Positions 20,150 to 48,067 of a DNA stretch of 64,000 nt are shown piece after piece. This DNA is from Zestosphaera sp. (GTDB lineage: Archaea > Thermoproteota > Thermoprotei_A > Sulfolobales > NBVN01), in NCBI GenBank assembly GCA_038727705.1, contig JAVYVJ010000002.1, forward strand, positions 176,012 to 240,011, given 5' to 3'. Made by a program: the position numbers and the translations under genes. Under the pieces are notes generated by a model that searched no databases, was not told the origin of the DNA, and saw nothing but the letters and a program-made list of their open reading frames with translations. The stretch's first letter is position 1. Each line of letters opens with the position of its first letter.

Positions 20150-21163
20150 TCAACAGGCAAAGCCAGGCGGCCTCACTTCAACTACCTCCCTGTTCACGAG
20201 GGTGGGTGGTGTCCTCCCTTCGTAGAAGGCAAGGAGGTTCTCAGCAACTACTTCCGCCATGCCGTGCCTCGCGTCGTATGTGGCGCTGGCTGCGTGCGGT
20301 GCTAGCACGACGTTCTTAAAGGCCGTTAGTGGGTGGTTTGGTGGTAGTGGTTCTTCTTCGTATACGTCTAGTCCTGCTCCTGCTATCCATCCTTCGTTTA
20401 GTGCTTTGATTAGTGCTTGGGTGTCTATGACTCCTCCCCTGGATGTGTTGATGAGCACGGCACTCCTCTTCATAAGCCTAAGCCTCCCCTCACCAATCAA
20501 ATACCTAGTCTGAGGAGTGAGGGGGACGTGAAGCGTAACAACATCCGACTCCCTCAACAACGTGTCCAGATCAGTGTATGTAACACCCAACTCCTGCTCA
20601 GCGTCCATGTTTCTCGTCAAGTCATAGTAGATAACCCTCATGCCGAAACCTCTCACACCTATCTCAGCAACTCTTCTACCTATCCTTCCCAGCCCCACTA
20701 CACCGAGTGTCTTGCCCCTCAATTCGATCCCTAAAAGCATCTTCGGATGCCAGCCTGTCCTGATCCTCCACCACTCGCCAAACCTGACTAAGAGATCGCC
20801 TTCAACAACCCTCCGGACCGTGGCCAGTATGAGCGCCCACGTGAACTCTGCAGTGGCCTCGGTCAGGACTCTGGGCGTGTTGGTCACGTACACGCCAAGC
20901 CTGGTCGCGCACTCAACGTCTATGTTGTCAAAGCCCACGGCAAGCTGAGCCACTAGGCGGAGCCTTGGAGCGCTCCTCAATAAGTTGCAGTCAACCCTAT
21001 CACTGAGCAACGACACAAGTGCGTCAACGTTCCTAACCTTCTCGAGCAATATCTCGTATGGTGGTGCCTGATACCTGTCCCATACCTCGACGTCATAGTA
21101 CTGACTTATCTTAGCCATGACATCGTCGAACAGCTCCCTAGTTATGAAGACCCTTGGTCTCAC
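20150..21163 (-). CDS. D-2-hydroxyacid dehydrogenase (glyoxylate/hydroxypyruvate reductase-like)
   Basis: NAD(P)-dependent reductase of the D-isomer 2-hydroxyacid dehydrogenase family, about 337 residues. Rossmann motif LGVVGLGRIGRRV, catalytic Arg in INTSRGGV, Glu in DVYEEEPLP and His in LAPHAASAT are all visible. Substrate could be glyoxylate or hydroxypyruvate. GTG 21163 is preferred, giving MRPRVFITRELFDD; upstream codons to 21223 precede the family homology. A 275-bp stretch (20325-20599) is identical in DNA to serA at 47259-47533, so the C-terminal third has been overwritten by, or has overwritten, its paralogue; the flanks are only similar. Confidence 0.85.
   Translation of the reverse strand: MRPRVFITRELFDDVMAKISQYYDVEVWDRYQAPPYEILLEKVRNVDALVSLLSDRVDCNLLRSAPRLRLVAQLAVGFDNIDVECATRLGVYVTNTPRVLTEATAEFTWALILATVRRVVEGDLLVRFGEWWRIRTGWHPKMLLGIELRGKTLGVVGLGRIGRRVAEIGVRGFGMRVIYYDLTRNMDAEQELGVTYTDLDTLLRESDVVTLHVPLTPQTRYLIGEGRLRLMKRSAVLINTSRGGVIDTQALIKALNEGWIAGAGLDVYEEEPLPPNHPLTAFKNVVLAPHAASATYDARHGMAEVVAENLLAFYEGRTPPTLVNREVVEVRPPGFAC
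20325..20599. repeat. 275-bp direct repeat shared with serA (copy A)
   Basis: Base-by-base reading shows identity with 47259-47533, including all third codon positions. Both copies are in the same reading frame and orientation. Flanking sequence drops at once to ordinary paralogue similarity. A second shared tract of 38 bp is at 20676-20713 (other copy 47613-47650). Recent gene conversion is the simplest cause. Confidence 0.93.
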
Positions 21164-21277
21164 ACACCACACCGAAAATATTTTGTACGTTAGTCTAAAT
21201 AAGCTATAAATTAAGGTTTGCAATTCTAGTTCAATTTTTATTAGCTCTGAAACGCTTCTCTACCGCGAGGTAATATA

Positions 21278-29916: not shown

Positions 29917-30294
29917 TCACTTAAGCCTTGAGAGGAACTTCTCCCTATCCACTACCACCCTCTCATGTACGCCGTACCCTATCAGGCTGTCTGAGCTCCA
30001 CGCCTCAACCCAGAAGATCAGTCTCCTGCCATCAGCCTGCAGCAACGTGGAACGTATCTCCACCTCACTGCCGACCAGCGCGGGCTTCACGTGATACACG
30101 TCGACATGAGTGCCCACGGTCGTCTGACCCTCGGGCAGGCCCTCCCCAGCGAATATGCAGCATGTCTCCTCCATAAAAGATATCATGGATGGTGTGGAGA
30201 GCACCTCAAGGGTTCCGGAACCCACATGCTTGGCTGTGTGTTGCGGCGTTATCGAATACTTCCGCACGTACCTCGCGCCAGGGGCTAATGACAT
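29917..30294 (-). CDS. Hotdog-fold thioesterase, FlK-like
   Basis: 125-residue hotdog protein, similar in layout to fluoroacetyl-CoA thioesterase-like proteins: TAKHVGSGTLEVLSTPSMISFMEETC holds the long hotdog helix, then EGQTTVGTHVDVYHVKPALVG. The conserved Thr, Glu and His positions (T in STPS, E in EETC, H in GTHVDV) match the usual triad. It probably hydrolyses a small acyl-CoA; the substrate is unknown. ATG start. It lies between tyrS and the ECF transporter genes with its own spacing, so is probably a separate unit. Confidence 0.75.
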   Translation of the reverse strand: MSLAPGARYVRKYSITPQHTAKHVGSGTLEVLSTPSMISFMEETCCIFAGEGLPEGQTTVGTHVDVYHVKPALVGSEVEIRSTLLQADGRRLIFWVEAWSSDSLIGYGVHERVVVDREKFLSRLK

Positions 30295-30356: not shown

Positions 30357-31055
30357 CTAGAGGGTGATGAGAACGTTGGCAGCGATTAGGACGGCCAGCA
30401 AAGCTAGGGTTATGGCCGTGTGTCTCGGGTTGTAGGTAAATGAGGGGTTGTAGGCTGGTTTAGTGTGTATGCCCTCCTCATACAACGACACATACTCCTC
30501 CGTCGTCACTATCGAGATAGCGAGGCTCCTCCAAGTCTCAACCCCCTTCATACTGCCGACGAGCAACGCTGTTTCGGCGTCACGCATTATATGTGGGACC
30601 ACCCTCCACGTGAGGGCAGGGTAGAGCGAGGCACTCCTCAAGCCCAAGACCTTCAGCAGAGTGGATACCTCCACGGGATTCAGGAAGTAGAAAAAGCATA
30701 GGAACGAGAGGCTGACGGTGAGAACACGCAGGGATATGAGCGCCGAGGATTGAATGCTCATCGTGAAGGGCAGGGACATTATGAGATACCATGCGGCCGG
30801 GATTGAGGCCAGGACTGCAGCGTATTTAATCGCTCTGGTGGAGCCGCGCATCACGTAGGTCAAAACAGCTGAGGCGAGTGCGATTAGTGTGTGGAGAACA
30901 CCTCCCCTGACAGCCAGTATCTGGGCAGCCAGTAGGGTGAGGTTCAACAGTAGAGGGACATGCCTCCCCTCAATATCACCATATATGAAGACAGCCCTGA
31001 ATAACAGTGAGCTGAAAACCCTCACTAACTCCGGCACCTTCCTAACGACGCTCAA
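30357..31055 (-). CDS. ecfT: ECF transporter transmembrane component (EcfT)
   Basis: Membrane scaffold of an energy-coupling-factor transporter, 232 residues. Five or so hydrophobic helices in the first 130 residues and two amphipathic helices that would touch the ATPases (SSALISLRVLTVSL and LLVGSMKGVETWRS, in the place of the CbiQ Ala-Arg-Gly boxes). One more helix closes the C-terminus. Its start overlaps the ATPase gene end by 14 bp. S, A-A and T genes run in this order on the minus strand. Confidence 0.82.
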   Translation of the reverse strand: MSVVRKVPELVRVFSSLLFRAVFIYGDIEGRHVPLLLNLTLLAAQILAVRGGVLHTLIALASAVLTYVMRGSTRAIKYAAVLASIPAAWYLIMSLPFTMSIQSSALISLRVLTVSLSFLCFFYFLNPVEVSTLLKVLGLRSASLYPALTWRVVPHIMRDAETALLVGSMKGVETWRSLAISIVTTEEYVSLYEEGIHTKPAYNPSFTYNPRHTAITLALLAVLIAANVLITL

Positions 31056-32307
31056 TACTCACCACCTTATTAGCGATCATCTCGACGAAGGGGTCGTGCG
31101 ACGCAATGACGAAGCCCGTGCCCATCGTGGAGGCTCTTACTATCGTCTCCAGAACGTAATGCTTGTTGATGGGGTCAAGGCCTGCCGTCGGCTCGTCCAT
31201 AAGAATGAATTCATACCCCCTAGCTAACGCTGAGGCTATGGCCAGCCTCCTCCTCTCGCCACTGCTTAGTCTCATGATGGGGGTCTCAATCTTGCTTGAG
31301 AGTCCGAAAAACTCAAGGAACTTCAAGCCCTCCCGACCCACCTCCTCAGCCGGCGTGGGCGAACTTAAGAAGAGTAGAGGGTTATCCGGCACCAACACCA
31401 GTTTTCGACGGACTCCATTAAACCTAACTACCCTACCACCTCTCACATACTCCCCGGCCACAAGCTTAAGCAGTGTAGTCTTCCCGGAACCTGATACCCC
31501 CTTAACAACCACTACCTCCCCCCTACACACATCGAAATCCACGTCCTTCAGCAAAGGCTCCCCGGAGTCAGGGAATTTGAAGCTGTCAACAATTATTCTC
31601 ATACAACCACCGCTATTCACATCAGGGGGTCTTAGGCTTCTCATCATACGTTCGAGAACCTCCCCAAACGGGTTTGCCGGCGAGTCTGTTAGGAGTCCTT
31701 CATGCATGTAGAAAGTCCTGCTGACCACGTTACTCCAGAGGGACATGTCGTGATCCACTATTACCAACGTCTTACCGTACTCCTTCAAAATCTTCTCAGC
31801 ATACCTGACCAGCGTCTCCGAGTTCCTTCTGTCCAAGTAGGAGGAGGGCTCGTCTAGCAGGAGCACGTCCTTACTTGAGCCCGCAGCTATGAGGAACGCC
31901 AACCTCTGTATCTCGCCGGAGCTCATGGTGTACGTTGTTCTGGCAGCGTATCCACCTAAGCCGAATTCCCCCAACACGTTGTCGACGTTGGACATGCCGT
32001 CGCTTAATCTGGACTCAGCGTAGCCGAGGACTTCAGACCACACATACGGTGTTGATATGAAGAACCACGGTTCCTGGTGGACGTACATAGCCCTACCCCG
32101 CAGTACTCCTAGGGAGGGGCTGCAGTAACCCTTCACAACACCACTAACGACCGAGGGTATCACGCCGCTCAACGCTTTAAGAAGCGTTGACTTTCCGGAG
32201 CCGGAGGGACCTACCAGGAGCACTGCCTCACCCTCACCGACTTCGAGGGAGGCGTCCCTCACTATCTGCTGTCCACCCACCCATACACTGAGGTTCTTAA
32301 CGATCAA
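31042..32307 (-). CDS. ecfA: ECF transporter ATPase, two fused ABC domains (EcfA1-A2)
   Basis: 421 residues containing two ABC cassettes in one chain. First: Walker A GPSGSGKST, signature MSSGEIQR, Walker B VLLLDEPSS, H-loop IVDHD. Second: GVSGSGKTT, LSSGERRR, FILMDEPTAGLD, IASHD. A linker of about 30 residues joins them. Both halves look competent for ATP hydrolysis. Coupled to the T component by a 14-bp overlap and to the S component by 7 bp. Confidence 0.9.
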   Translation of the reverse strand: MIVKNLSVWVGGQQIVRDASLEVGEGEAVLLVGPSGSGKSTLLKALSGVIPSVVSGVVKGYCSPSLGVLRGRAMYVHQEPWFFISTPYVWSEVLGYAESRLSDGMSNVDNVLGEFGLGGYAARTTYTMSSGEIQRLAFLIAAGSSKDVLLLDEPSSYLDRRNSETLVRYAEKILKEYGKTLVIVDHDMSLWSNVVSRTFYMHEGLLTDSPANPFGEVLERMMRSLRPPDVNSGGCMRIIVDSFKFPDSGEPLLKDVDFDVCRGEVVVVKGVSGSGKTTLLKLVAGEYVRGGRVVRFNGVRRKLVLVPDNPLLFLSSPTPAEEVGREGLKFLEFFGLSSKIETPIMRLSSGERRRLAIASALARGYEFILMDEPTAGLDPINKHYVLETIVRASTMGTGFVIASHDPFVEMIANKVVSIERR

Positions 32308-32314
32308 CCTAGAA

Positions 32315-33052
32315 CTACCTTCTAGCCCGAGTGACGAAGGATATCACTGGTGAGGAGAGCGTCAGGCCCGCTAGAGCCTGGCCGAAGTTGACTGGAACTT
32401 CAAGGAAAGCCTCCCCAGACGGCACTCCCTGGAGTGGGTTAGAGATAAAGTACTCGTACAGGAAGTACCCGAGGACCATGAGGGAGCCGCCGGCCAGTAT
32501 CGGAACCACGTGACTCAGCGCCTCACCACCTCTCACCACCACATAAGCCACGGAGCCCGCGATCAGCGCGCCCACCAAGATCCAGAACCAAGAGCCTAGC
32601 GTGAACGACGCTGAAACCACGTTCACGTTGAGTCCCGCTATGCTTAGCGGTATCGAGGTAAGCTCGACCTCCCCAGTGAAGAGAAGCACTCCCAGACCCG
32701 CTATAGTGGCTCCGAGCACCAGGCCCGTCATTATGGAGATTAGGCGAAGTCTCCGTGGATCGCCGACCCTCCCCCTGAAGCTCCTGATTAGTAGTGAGAC
32801 AACGAAGCCTTCAACGAACTTAATGAGTAAGGTGCCTGGCGCGAAGATTCCGTAGCCTGTCACCAGGTCAGCCAGGGCCGATCCCATTCCTGAGGCAAGG
32901 CCGGCCAACGTGGGGGTGGTGAGCGCCGCCACCGTGTATATGGCGACCTCCCCCAGGTTGAAGTACCCCCTCGTCGCTGGAGTATAGATCTGAAGTATTA
33001 TGGTAGCTATTAGGACCAACGCCGTGTAAAGGGAAGCCCTGACTAAGCTCAT
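32315..33052 (-). CDS. ECF transporter substrate-binding S component
   Basis: Membrane protein of 245 residues with about six helices. The segment YFNLGEVAIYTVAAL and ASGMGSALADLVTGYGIFAP resemble the riboflavin-type ECF S family (PF07155-like), though that family covers more than riboflavin. No riboswitch was seen upstream; a TATA-like GCTTATATAG (33113-33124) is the promoter. ATG 33052 follows GGGTGGTGAGG. Leads the S-AA-T operon. Confidence 0.75.
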   Translation of the reverse strand: MSLVRASLYTALVLIATIILQIYTPATRGYFNLGEVAIYTVAALTTPTLAGLASGMGSALADLVTGYGIFAPGTLLIKFVEGFVVSLLIRSFRGRVGDPRRLRLISIMTGLVLGATIAGLGVLLFTGEVELTSIPLSIAGLNVNVVSASFTLGSWFWILVGALIAGSVAYVVVRGGEALSHVVPILAGGSLMVLGYFLYEYFISNPLQGVPSGEAFLEVPVNFGQALAGLTLSSPVISFVTRARR

Positions 33053-33159
33053 CCTCACCACCCACTCAGACTAGCGGGTTGGAGTTTTTAGGTAATGGAT
33101 ACACTATTGGGTTCACTATATAAGCTTACGAGCGGAATCGCTTAGGACAACAGGCAGGC

Positions 33160-34485
33160 CTATCTGAGGTACTTCAAGCCTTGCTCAGTCACAGTGACCA
33201 ACTTCCTCAGCCTGCCGCCGACCCTTCTGAAGTCAATTATCTCAAGGAGGCCTGCCTCAACGAGCTCGTTGACGTGCTTATACACGCTCCTCCTACTGAG
33301 GGAGAGTCCGTACCTACTACGTAATTCCTTCCATATCATGTATGGGTGCATGGGCTTTCCGTAGGCAATCATCTCCAAAATCTTTGATTTGGTGAATCCT
33401 AGATTCAGGAACTCTTCTCTACTGCCGGTAGTCCTCTCCAGCAATGCCTTCATGACGTAAGGGTCATGTAGGGGGTCGCCAGTCAGTAAAGCCACAGTCG
33501 CCCCATTACCTCTGACTCTAGCCTCCGCCTTCTGAAGCGCCGCGACGCAGGACGCACTGATAGGCCCTATTAAAAAGCCTTCCCTCCTAATAACCAGTTC
33601 GCTTGCCTCAAGCGCCTCGTCATCACACACGTCAACCATCTCCAGGAACCCCGACGACGTGAGGTCCTCCAAGTATCTGTGAAGCATGGGTTTAGCCACG
33701 TATATCTCCCTCAGCAGTGGTGACTCCCTGCACGCCCTAACCCCTAAGAATCTGAACCTGAGGTTCAGGTCCTTGAGGGCTCGGTAGATGCTCATAGTCA
33801 AGACCCCGTCCCCGATGGGGATGACAATGCTTAGAGGTGTCTTCCTACCAAGCTCGTGAAGCACCTCGAATACTAGGGTCCTATATCCGTCCATAAGGTA
33901 TGGATGCGAGGGAGGTACAGCGACGCCGTAGACTTCAGCACTCTTCAGCGCCCTGCTCAAAGCTTCCTCATAACTATCAACAAACCTCACCCTACTACCG
34001 ATCAGTAGCGTCTTGTATGCCTTACTCGGCGTCACGCTTGAGGGCACGTAGACACTAGTGGTGATGCCCACCCTCCTCAGGTAGGTTGATAGGGAGATTC
34101 CTAAATCACCTGTGGAGGCGATGGAGACGGACTTTACTCTGAAATGCTTGAGGGCTGTGGTGAGGGTGGCGGCGCCCCTGTCTATGAAGGATCCCGTTGG
34201 GTTCTTCGACTCGTCCTTGAAGTATAGGTCAAGCCCTAGGCTTCTGCCGATCCTGACCGACTTGAGTAGGGGGGTATTACCCTCACCCAATGTGATCCTA
34301 GGTCTCATGAAGGATGTGTAAAGGGCTCTACTCCACACCCACACACCAGAACCCCTGACCCTAGTCAGGGGACCCCTGAACGCCGGGATTAGAAGGCCGC
34401 CGCAATAAGGACACTTATCAACGTACGCAGTCCCCCTTGACACAAAGCCGCAACTAGCGCATTCTAATCCGCTCCCAGCATGCAT
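33160..34485 (-). CDS. Threonine-synthase-like protein without PLP lysine, fused to a winged helix
   Basis: 441 residues. Order: zinc ribbon (CASCGF, CPYCGG; residues 9-30), a fold-type II PLP-enzyme domain like threonine synthase (70-350), and a winged helix-turn-helix (365-441: RRSVYKHVNELVEAGLLEII). The PLP site is degraded. NPTGSFIDRG has Ile (ATA) where the Schiff-base Lys belongs. ASTGDLG has Asp for the Asn of the SGN loop. The phosphate loop is IPIGDGVL, not GNGG. Loss at three sites argues against a sequencing slip. It probably senses an amino acid or phosphorylated ligand and binds DNA. ATG start; next to the ECF operon and divergent from Nudix. Confidence 0.82.
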   Translation of the reverse strand: MHAGSGLECASCGFVSRGTAYVDKCPYCGGLLIPAFRGPLTRVRGSGVWVWSRALYTSFMRPRITLGEGNTPLLKSVRIGRSLGLDLYFKDESKNPTGSFIDRGAATLTTALKHFRVKSVSIASTGDLGISLSTYLRRVGITTSVYVPSSVTPSKAYKTLLIGSRVRFVDSYEEALSRALKSAEVYGVAVPPSHPYLMDGYRTLVFEVLHELGRKTPLSIVIPIGDGVLTMSIYRALKDLNLRFRFLGVRACRESPLLREIYVAKPMLHRYLEDLTSSGFLEMVDVCDDEALEASELVIRREGFLIGPISASCVAALQKAEARVRGNGATVALLTGDPLHDPYVMKALLERTTGSREEFLNLGFTKSKILEMIAYGKPMHPYMIWKELRSRYGLSLSRRSVYKHVNELVEAGLLEIIDFRRVGGRLRKLVTVTEQGLKYLR

Positions 34486-34557
34486 GGCCTCAGTCCTAAG
34501 ATAACTTCTGCATTAAAGCATTAATTCGCGAGCATATCACTATCGTAGGTGGATCTG

Positions 34558-35013
34558 TTGGGCGAGTGGCCCAGAGTGGCTGTGGGTGCCGTAGTGCTCA
34601 GAGACGGTAATGAGATCCTCTTGATTAAGAGGAGGTATCCTCCATCACCTAACTTGTGGTCAATACCTGGAGGACACATAGAAGCTGGTGAGCCCATCAT
34701 GACCGCATTATTCAGGGAGCTAGAGGAGGAGACATCCCTTAAAGCCAGCAAGGCAGAGCTCTTCGCCATCACTGAGTACATGCGTCTCAGAAGGGACTAC
34801 AGCATCAAATATCATTACGTGATACTCGACTACTTGATCAAGGACGCTGAAGGGGTGCCTAAATACAATGAGGAATCACTGGGGATAGGATTCTTCAAGT
34901 TCGACACGGCTTTGAAGCTGGAGCTGACAGACACGACTAAGGAGTTGATACGTTTAATCATCACTGAAGGACTCAGCGGCGTGAAACACATAATTAATGT
35001 AGTCTACGAATAG
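34558..35013 (+). CDS. Nudix hydrolase
   Basis: 151 residues with a complete Nudix box: GGHIEAGEP, then RELEEETSL (G-x5-E-x7-R-E-x2-E-E). It hydrolyses some nucleoside diphosphate derivative; the substrate is unknown. TTG 34558 is preferred since AGGTGGATC precedes it by 2-5 nt; GTG 34549 lies inside that site. The frame stays open for 57 codons after the TAG stop (see findings). Confidence 0.82.
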   Translation: MGEWPRVAVGAVVLRDGNEILLIKRRYPPSPNLWSIPGGHIEAGEPIMTALFRELEEETSLKASKAELFAITEYMRLRRDYSIKYHYVILDYLIKDAEGVPKYNEESLGIGFFKFDTALKLELTDTTKELIRLIITEGLSGVKHIINVVYE

Positions 35014-47137: not shown

Positions 47138-48067
47138 TCACTGCTTCATCGTCTTAAGTAACTCTAGAACCTTCCTAACAGCCTCGATGCCCGCCCTCTC
47201 CTGAGCCTCATCGGTAGAGGCCCCTATGTGGGGGGTTAGAACTACGTTCTCAAGCTTTGTTAGTGGGTGGTTTGGTGGTAGTGGTTCTTCTTCGTATACG
47301 TCTAGTCCTGCTCCTGCTATCCATCCTTCGTTTAGTGCTTTGATTAGTGCTTGGGTGTCTATGACTCCTCCCCTGGATGTGTTGATGAGCACGGCACTCC
47401 TCTTCATAAGCCTAAGCCTCCCCTCACCAATCAAATACCTAGTCTGAGGAGTGAGGGGGACGTGAAGCGTAACAACATCCGACTCCCTCAACAACGTGTC
47501 CAGATCAGTGTATGTAACACCCAACTCCTGCTCTGCCTGAGGGTCCAGTCTATAGGGGTCATAGTAGATAACCCTCATTCCAAAACCCTTAGTTGCTATC
47601 AATGCCACCTCCCTACCTATCCTTCCCAGCCCCACTACACCGAGTGTCTTCCCCTTGAGCTCGAAGCCCTCTGCCTCCTTCTTAACCCATTTGCCTTCCC
47701 TCATCTTTCTGTCGGAGTATGATATCCTCCTGGCCAGCGCGAGCGTTAAACCGAAAACAAGCTCTGCCACGCTTCTCGTTGGGGCTTCAGGAGTGTTAAT
47801 TACTTTAATCCCTCTTGCCTCGGCCGTCCTTACGTCTATGTTGTCTAACCCTACCCCTGCCCTAGCGATTATCTTGAGTTTCTTCGCACTGTTGATTACT
47901 TCTGCAGTAACTAGAGGCTTACTCCTCACGAACAGGACGTCGACGTCCTCCACCAGCTTAACCAACTCACTCTCGGAGGGGTACTCCCTGTATAGTATCT
48001 GGAACCCCGAGTCCTCGAGCATTCTGACTGCTTCCTTATGGATTGGAGCGGTGAGGAGTGCTTTCAT
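47138..48067 (-). CDS. serA: D-3-phosphoglycerate dehydrogenase
   Basis: 309 residues, short form without ACT domain. Rossmann LGVVGLGRIGREV, catalytic Arg in INTSRGGV, Glu in DVYEEEPLP and His in TPHIGAST. N-terminal AGVGLDNIDVRTAEARGI is typical of PGDH. Overlaps the start of the aminotransferase end by 4 bp (48064-48067). A 275-bp block is identical to the dehydrogenase at 20150-21163. ATG start. Confidence 0.88.
   Translation of the reverse strand: MKALLTAPIHKEAVRMLEDSGFQILYREYPSESELVKLVEDVDVLFVRSKPLVTAEVINSAKKLKIIARAGVGLDNIDVRTAEARGIKVINTPEAPTRSVAELVFGLTLALARRISYSDRKMREGKWVKKEAEGFELKGKTLGVVGLGRIGREVALIATKGFGMRVIYYDPYRLDPQAEQELGVTYTDLDTLLRESDVVTLHVPLTPQTRYLIGEGRLRLMKRSAVLINTSRGGVIDTQALIKALNEGWIAGAGLDVYEEEPLPPNHPLTKLENVVLTPHIGASTDEAQERAGIEAVRKVLELLKTMKQ
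47259..47533. repeat. 275-bp direct repeat shared with the dehydrogenase at 20150 (copy B)
   Basis: Identical to 20325-20599 (offset 26934). Covers the catalytic half of serA. A second 38-bp identical tract is at 47613-47650. Confidence 0.93.

Follow-up and report, generated by a model that had tools for sequence, protein, structure and literature searches.

The 441-residue protein encoded on the minus strand at positions 33160-34485 of the analysed DNA (64,000 nucleotides from Zestosphaera sp., hereafter the window) is probably a one-component transcription regulator that controls the supply of vitamin B6 and would bind PLP or another B6 vitamer non-covalently. Its gene is the first of an apparent same-strand cluster and is followed by the genes for an ECF transporter S component, a fused double ATPase, and a probable EcfT. 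With somewhat less confidence, we regard the protein as a member of a widespread archaeal family of PLP-sensing transcription factors, in which a threonine synthase was joined to a winged helix and the cofactor lysine was replaced by aliphatic residues, arginine, or aromatic residues depending on the clade. A covalent site would thereby have become a reversible sensor, and the family would be an archaeal equivalent of the bacterial PdxR/MocR regulators that is filed under the name of threonine synthase. The features of the locus are as follows.

29917-30294, minus strand: FlK-like thioesterase, a conserved neighbour
30357-31055, minus strand: probable EcfT, a membrane protein assigned by position and conservation; no Pfam match
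31042-32307, minus strand: fused double ABC ATPase (EcfA-A')
32315-33061, minus strand: ECF transporter S component, predicted vitamin B6 importer (PF07155; PDB match 4hzu_S, which is HmpT)
33100-33119, minus strand: candidate operator ATAGTGAACCCAATAGTGTA, a direct repeat with a 12-bp period upstream of the TATA-like CCTAAAAAC; in most close homologues, it is conserved ahead of the S gene
33160-34485, minus strand: putative B6-sensing regulator (zinc ribbon, dead threonine-synthase-fold domain, PadR-like winged helix)
34183-34185 in plus-strand numbering, minus strand: ATA codon (Ile101) at the Schiff-base lysine position of threonine synthases, placed by alignment
34549-35013, plus strand: divergently oriented NUDIX hydrolase; its place beside the regulator is conserved in 17 loci

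Elsewhere in the window, two D-3-phosphoglycerate-dehydrogenase-like genes (20150-21223 and 47138-48067) lie 26 kb apart. Over a stretch of 430 bp, the two are 90% identical, and beyond it their similarity is much lower, a pattern as after gene conversion.

Lysine loss in a fused protein family

The open reading frame starts with ATG, and a fold-type-II PLP fold was identified by two approaches. The Pfam PALP domain covers residues 64-336 (168.7 bits), and the best PDB matches of an AlphaFold model (59-sequence alignment, mean pLDDT of 91.6) in Foldseek were threonine synthases, for example 6nmx and 1v7c. The C-terminal winged helix (residues 369-440) passed the PadR model PF03551 marginally, with 28.7 bits at a gathering cut-off of 27. 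At the N-terminus, a CxxC...CxxC zinc ribbon (C9, C12, C25, C28) was found, which also occurs in most unfused archaeal threonine synthases of the alignment. When aligned with the Thermus threonine synthase, the PLP-binding Lys61 corresponded to Ile101 and Asn87 to Asp127. In the phosphate loop, GDGVL stands in place of the GNAGN of threonine synthase, with the loop glycines kept, and Thr335, the counterpart of the Thr317 that pairs with N1 of the PLP ring, is kept as well. In the clade of the window protein, DGYRT has taken the place of the substrate-side motif EGQKT. An earlier note, made from the window alone, had described the exchanges of lysine for isoleucine and of asparagine for aspartate, the altered phosphate loop, and the added winged helix, and the Thermus alignment and Pfam bear all of this out. 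It had also considered that the ATA codon might stem from a sequencing error, which is ruled out because Ile101 is present in four further genomes of the genus. Besides the regulator, seven PALP genes were found in the window genome. The second, intact threonine synthase for which the note had proposed to search is present (L004, with the motif NPTATFKDRP and 202 bits against the thrC model at a cut-off of 167), and thus the dead copy is not required as an enzyme.

Orthologues of the window protein occurred in all four other searched genomes of the genus and across the family and order. In wider searches, proteins with this fusion turned up in Thermoproteota, Nitrososphaeria, Bathyarchaeia, Aigarchaeota, Asgard archaea, Thermococci, and Methanomicrobia. 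For a comparison, 111 fused proteins and 26 unfused relatives were taken from among the matches listed. The Schiff-base lysine was present in all 26 unfused relatives and absent in 108 of the 111 fused proteins, where it was replaced by arginine (46), isoleucine (35), leucine (9), methionine (7), valine (5), tyrosine (3), threonine (2), or phenylalanine (1); all close homologues carry isoleucine, leucine, or methionine. The co-occurrence of lysine change and fusion, which the earlier note had put forward for testing, hence held for these 108 proteins, but L104, L177, and L178 are fused with the lysine intact. These are related Bathyarchaeia-type sequences that form a single clade inside the arginine group, and a rule by which fusion always means lysine loss is false. 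The lysine of L104, the gene of which adjoins the same transporter S gene, was either kept from an ancestral state or regained by reversion. In the phylogenetic tree, the deep branches of which are weakly supported, the aliphatic fused proteins were placed apart from the group with arginine, tyrosine, or phenylalanine, which sits beside the unfused enzymes. Because of this separation, the lysine was probably lost more than once.

The PLP-pocket residues K90, N95, D102, R103, and T203, the loop glycines, and Thr/Ser335 were found in nearly all fused proteins, and the change from asparagine to aspartate was seen only in 33 of the 58 proteins of the aliphatic group. Purifying selection acts on the regulator gene, with a dN of about 0.2 and a dS of about 1.8 against the nearest orthologue (dN/dS near 0.1), and the reading frame is intact in dozens of genomes. 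The family-wide lysine loss, the conserved fusion, the purifying selection, and the synteny described below lend good support to the suggestion of the earlier note that a dead threonine synthase gave rise to a metabolite-sensing transcription factor. Lacking the lysine, the threonine-synthase-derived domain would form no covalent internal aldimine, and as most of the PLP pocket is kept, reversible and non-covalent binding of PLP or another B6 vitamer is probable. With the loss of the lysine, a cofactor once held tightly and covalently would have become a ligand that binds reversibly. The old cofactor, PLP, or a related vitamer would be the signal, and the state of the ligand would be passed on to the C-terminal PadR-like winged helix.

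Transporter, phyletic pattern, and candidate operators

The S component of the window scored 76.6 bits against PF07155 (gathering score of 26.7), and its sole significant PDB match was 4hzu_S (HmpT; E-values of 8e-07 and 1.5e-09). PdxU and PdxU2/HmpT both belong to PF07155 (PMC9997740), and pyridoxamine is the preferred substrate of HmpT (PMC4860826). The archaeal S proteins share this Pfam family with ECF-HmpT/PdxU and the conserved Glu41 of HmpT, but are longer (about 250 aa) and carry a lysine instead of His84. Judged by the HmpT/PdxU family and the complementarity with PdxS, the S component is a predicted importer of vitamin B6.

In a clustering of neighbouring genes, S was the commonest neighbour of the fused gene in many phyla, in either same-strand or divergent orientation. 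With equal flank rules for both groups, S was located within 1.3 kb in 54 of the 83 fused loci with enough flank, compared with none of the 16 unfused loci; the other 29 fused loci had no S inside this distance. When the search was started from the S side, an intact fused regulator was adjacent in 23 of the best 30 S loci, and only a fragment in one more. A ribose-5-phosphate isomerase A-like gene was observed near the regulator in Thermococcus (L093, L106) and beside the transporter in Zestosphaera (L042). Ribose 5-phosphate is a substrate of PdxS.

The phyletic survey comprised 229 genomes of the class, with S in 100, PdxS in 111, and ThiC in 72 of them. Both S and PdxS were found in 23 genomes, S only in 77, PdxS only in 88, and neither in 41, which amounts to an odds ratio of 0.14 (p 6e-12, not corrected for kinship). 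Among the ThiC-negative genomes, the avoidance was of similar extent (odds ratio of 0.12, p 2e-8, likewise uncorrected), and no association of S with ThiC was found when PdxS was fixed (odds ratios of 1.13 and 0.49, not significant). Resolved by family, f5 and f8 showed strong avoidance, and f1 and f7 a weaker one in the same direction. In f9 and f2 there was none, and S was present in genomes with PdxS as well as in genomes without it. PdxS is missing from the window genome, as it is from the genus.

Conservation was the basis for assigning the operator. In the close homologues, the repeats upstream of S have the consensus ATAkTGAAnnnnATAkTGwA and are followed by a TATA-like element. When up to two mismatches are allowed, 0.05 matches to the repeat are expected per 64 kb, and with one mismatch allowed, the site at 33100-33119 is the sole operator match in the whole window genome. 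Further promoters were scored with a matrix trained solely on S promoters, and the training sites were masked in the background. In Zestosphaera (G005), where both the regulator and PdxS are present, two copies of the half-site stand about 54 bp ahead of pdxS-pdxT and form a perfect inverted repeat, CTTCAATAT-N7-ATATTGAAG (empirical p of 0.003). A weaker match was found upstream of pdxS in G150 (p of 0.014). In that genome, the regulator gene (C2:38824-40113) lies directly upstream of pdxS (PdxS domain at C2:37918-38535) on the same strand, and S was not detected. The motif gave no score in L025 or L136.

In Ignisphaera (L238, L240, L241, L242, L244, L249), TTCGATTA repeats with a 13-bp spacing were located upstream of the B6-type S and, in two species, upstream of pdxS too. 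Exact matches of this pattern in seven genomes fell into three S promoters and one pdxS promoter, a count that is descriptive only, as the pattern was drawn from those promoters. The Ignisphaera regulator gene is not adjacent, and PdxT was not found beside the Ignisphaera homologues. Palindromes were observed at other loci. The second type of archaeal pdxS (with a KLVDSY N-terminus) is preceded in L219 (G059), L225 (G156), L235 (G133), and L236 (G107) by one around GAACGTTC, which reads TTGAACGTTCAA in two of the four; it is possibly another B6 operator. The palindrome TTAAAGTTTAAACTTTAA lies between an arginine-type fused regulator and the S gene in L089 and L099, and is perfect in L099.

With regards to the proposed mechanism, we infer that the winged helix would bind the tandem ATAkTGAA repeats that immediately precede the TATA-like element of the importer gene and, in some relatives, also the repeats upstream of pdxST. 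Repression at plentiful PLP would be the simplest guess for the sign of the regulation.

Alternative readings

A regulator of the same kind might instead serve HMP and thiamine, with S importing HMP and the protein sensing a compound of the thiamine pathway. HmpT-like S components were indeed initially predicted as HMP carriers (PMC4860826), and ThiC is absent in the window genome and in each of the 20 genomes in which close homologues (type 1) occur. The window genome, in which ThiD-ThiN and Thi4 are encoded side by side (L250, G000:C1:718309-719043), is likely an HMP auxotroph and may also need to import HMP. As it has ThiD-ThiN and Thi4 but neither PdxS nor ThiC, the import of a thiamine precursor is still a rival in this particular genome. 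However, S is not tied to ThiC for a given state of PdxS, it anticorrelates with PdxS where ThiC is absent, and 17 genomes of f5 with PdxS and without ThiC have no S. This conditional comparison weakened HMP or thiamine as the substrate. Moreover, neither the pdxS synteny in G150 nor the repeats shared in G150 and G005 fit a thiamine regulator, and a fold-type-II PLP pocket offers no reason for binding HMP. Altogether, we consider this reading unlikely. We give slightly less weight to a sensor of an amino acid or of a PLP-amino-acid adduct (threonine, homoserine phosphate, or an external aldimine) with an indirect link to the transporter. Its fold is that of threonine synthase, PLP proteins without the lysine can hold an external aldimine, and the substrate-side residues resembling EGQKT are partly kept. 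Yet this motif reads DGYRT in the window clade, and the recurrent neighbour is a transporter of the B6 family, or pdxS in G150. Genes for threonine or homoserine were not recurrent among the neighbourhood clusters that were identified, and homoserine phosphate and threonine are not supported as ligands on this ground. The earlier note had favoured these or a related compound; the genomic context, the phyletic distribution, and the motif in the promoters speak for vitamin B6 or PLP, the former cofactor rather than the former substrate.

It appears very improbable that the protein has remained an enzyme, with a changed PLP chemistry, or acts as a catalytic partner, and that its winged helix serves protein interaction and not DNA binding. 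The purifying selection on the PALP domain, the name of threonine synthase given to the family by NCBI, and the lysine kept in three fused relatives would agree with it. On the other hand, the wide mix of residues at the lysine site (I, L, M, V, R, Y, F, T) fits a loss of function rather than a new catalytic residue, an intact threonine synthase is encoded elsewhere in the genome, and the PadR-like winged helix is conserved, as are the adjacent repeats. A decaying pseudogene or an error at the ATA codon, for which the lost lysine and nothing more could be brought forward, deserves practically no credence and was refuted by the isoleucine, leucine, or methionine in all close homologues, the dN/dS near 0.1, and the frames intact in dozens of genomes.

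Comparison with known systems

The window protein resembles threonine synthase (ThrC) in its fold, zinc ribbon, and most pocket residues, whereas the catalytic lysine of NPTGSFKDRG is lost and a winged helix is added. It stays below the curated ThrC cut-offs, with 85.9 versus 167.1 bits for TIGR00260, 124 versus 303 for PRK08197, and 104 versus 301 for PRK06450. The NCBIfam equivalog PRK05638 / NF004170 (442 aa), named threonine synthase, has the same architecture including the winged helix, but the window protein does not reach its cut-off of 421 (160.9 bits). This cut-off is exceeded by L099 and by the Thermococcus protein L093 (712 bits), while L080 is level with it. Since the lysine of L093 is replaced by arginine, members of PRK05638 are probably annotated as an enzyme that they cannot be. 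The enzyme name is very likely wrong for the members without the lysine, which indicates a probable misannotation at the level of the family. Thermococcus contributes L093, L098, and L106 to the fused family, and its members without the lysine are strong matches to PRK05638/NF004170.

If our reading is correct, a family annotated as threonine synthase would be corrected, and many archaeal genomes would be supplied with a regulator and a B6 importer. It would further provide a clear example of how an enzyme can become the sensor of its own cofactor, and the relatives would represent several stages of this change (lysine, arginine, aliphatic, and aromatic). A description of such a regulator was not found in the literature searched, which does not prove that it is unpublished. 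PLP sensing in archaea likewise seems undescribed there, and the B6 transporters of archaea are unassigned.

Among archaeal vitamin regulators, those of the ThiR type combine a thiamine-phosphate-synthase domain with an HTH. They would share with the window protein the origin from an enzyme domain and an HTH, but differ in enzyme fold and vitamin. The bacterial MocR/PdxR regulators also consist of a PLP-enzyme fold and a winged helix, control pdxST, pdxK, and the PdxU importer, and are associated with repeated-box motifs (PMC5320631). The synteny of the fused regulator with S or pdxS and the shared repeats suggest that it may likewise control genes for the synthesis or uptake of PLP. However, MocR proteins combine a GntR-type winged helix with an aminotransferase-like sensor of fold type I and are reported not to be present in Archaea (PMC5320631), whereas the window protein has a PALP domain of fold type II, a C-terminal PadR-like winged helix, and no lysine, and lacks the defining features of MocR. 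On the predicted role, its likeness to PdxR/MocR is functional and the descent unrelated, an analogy and not a membership.
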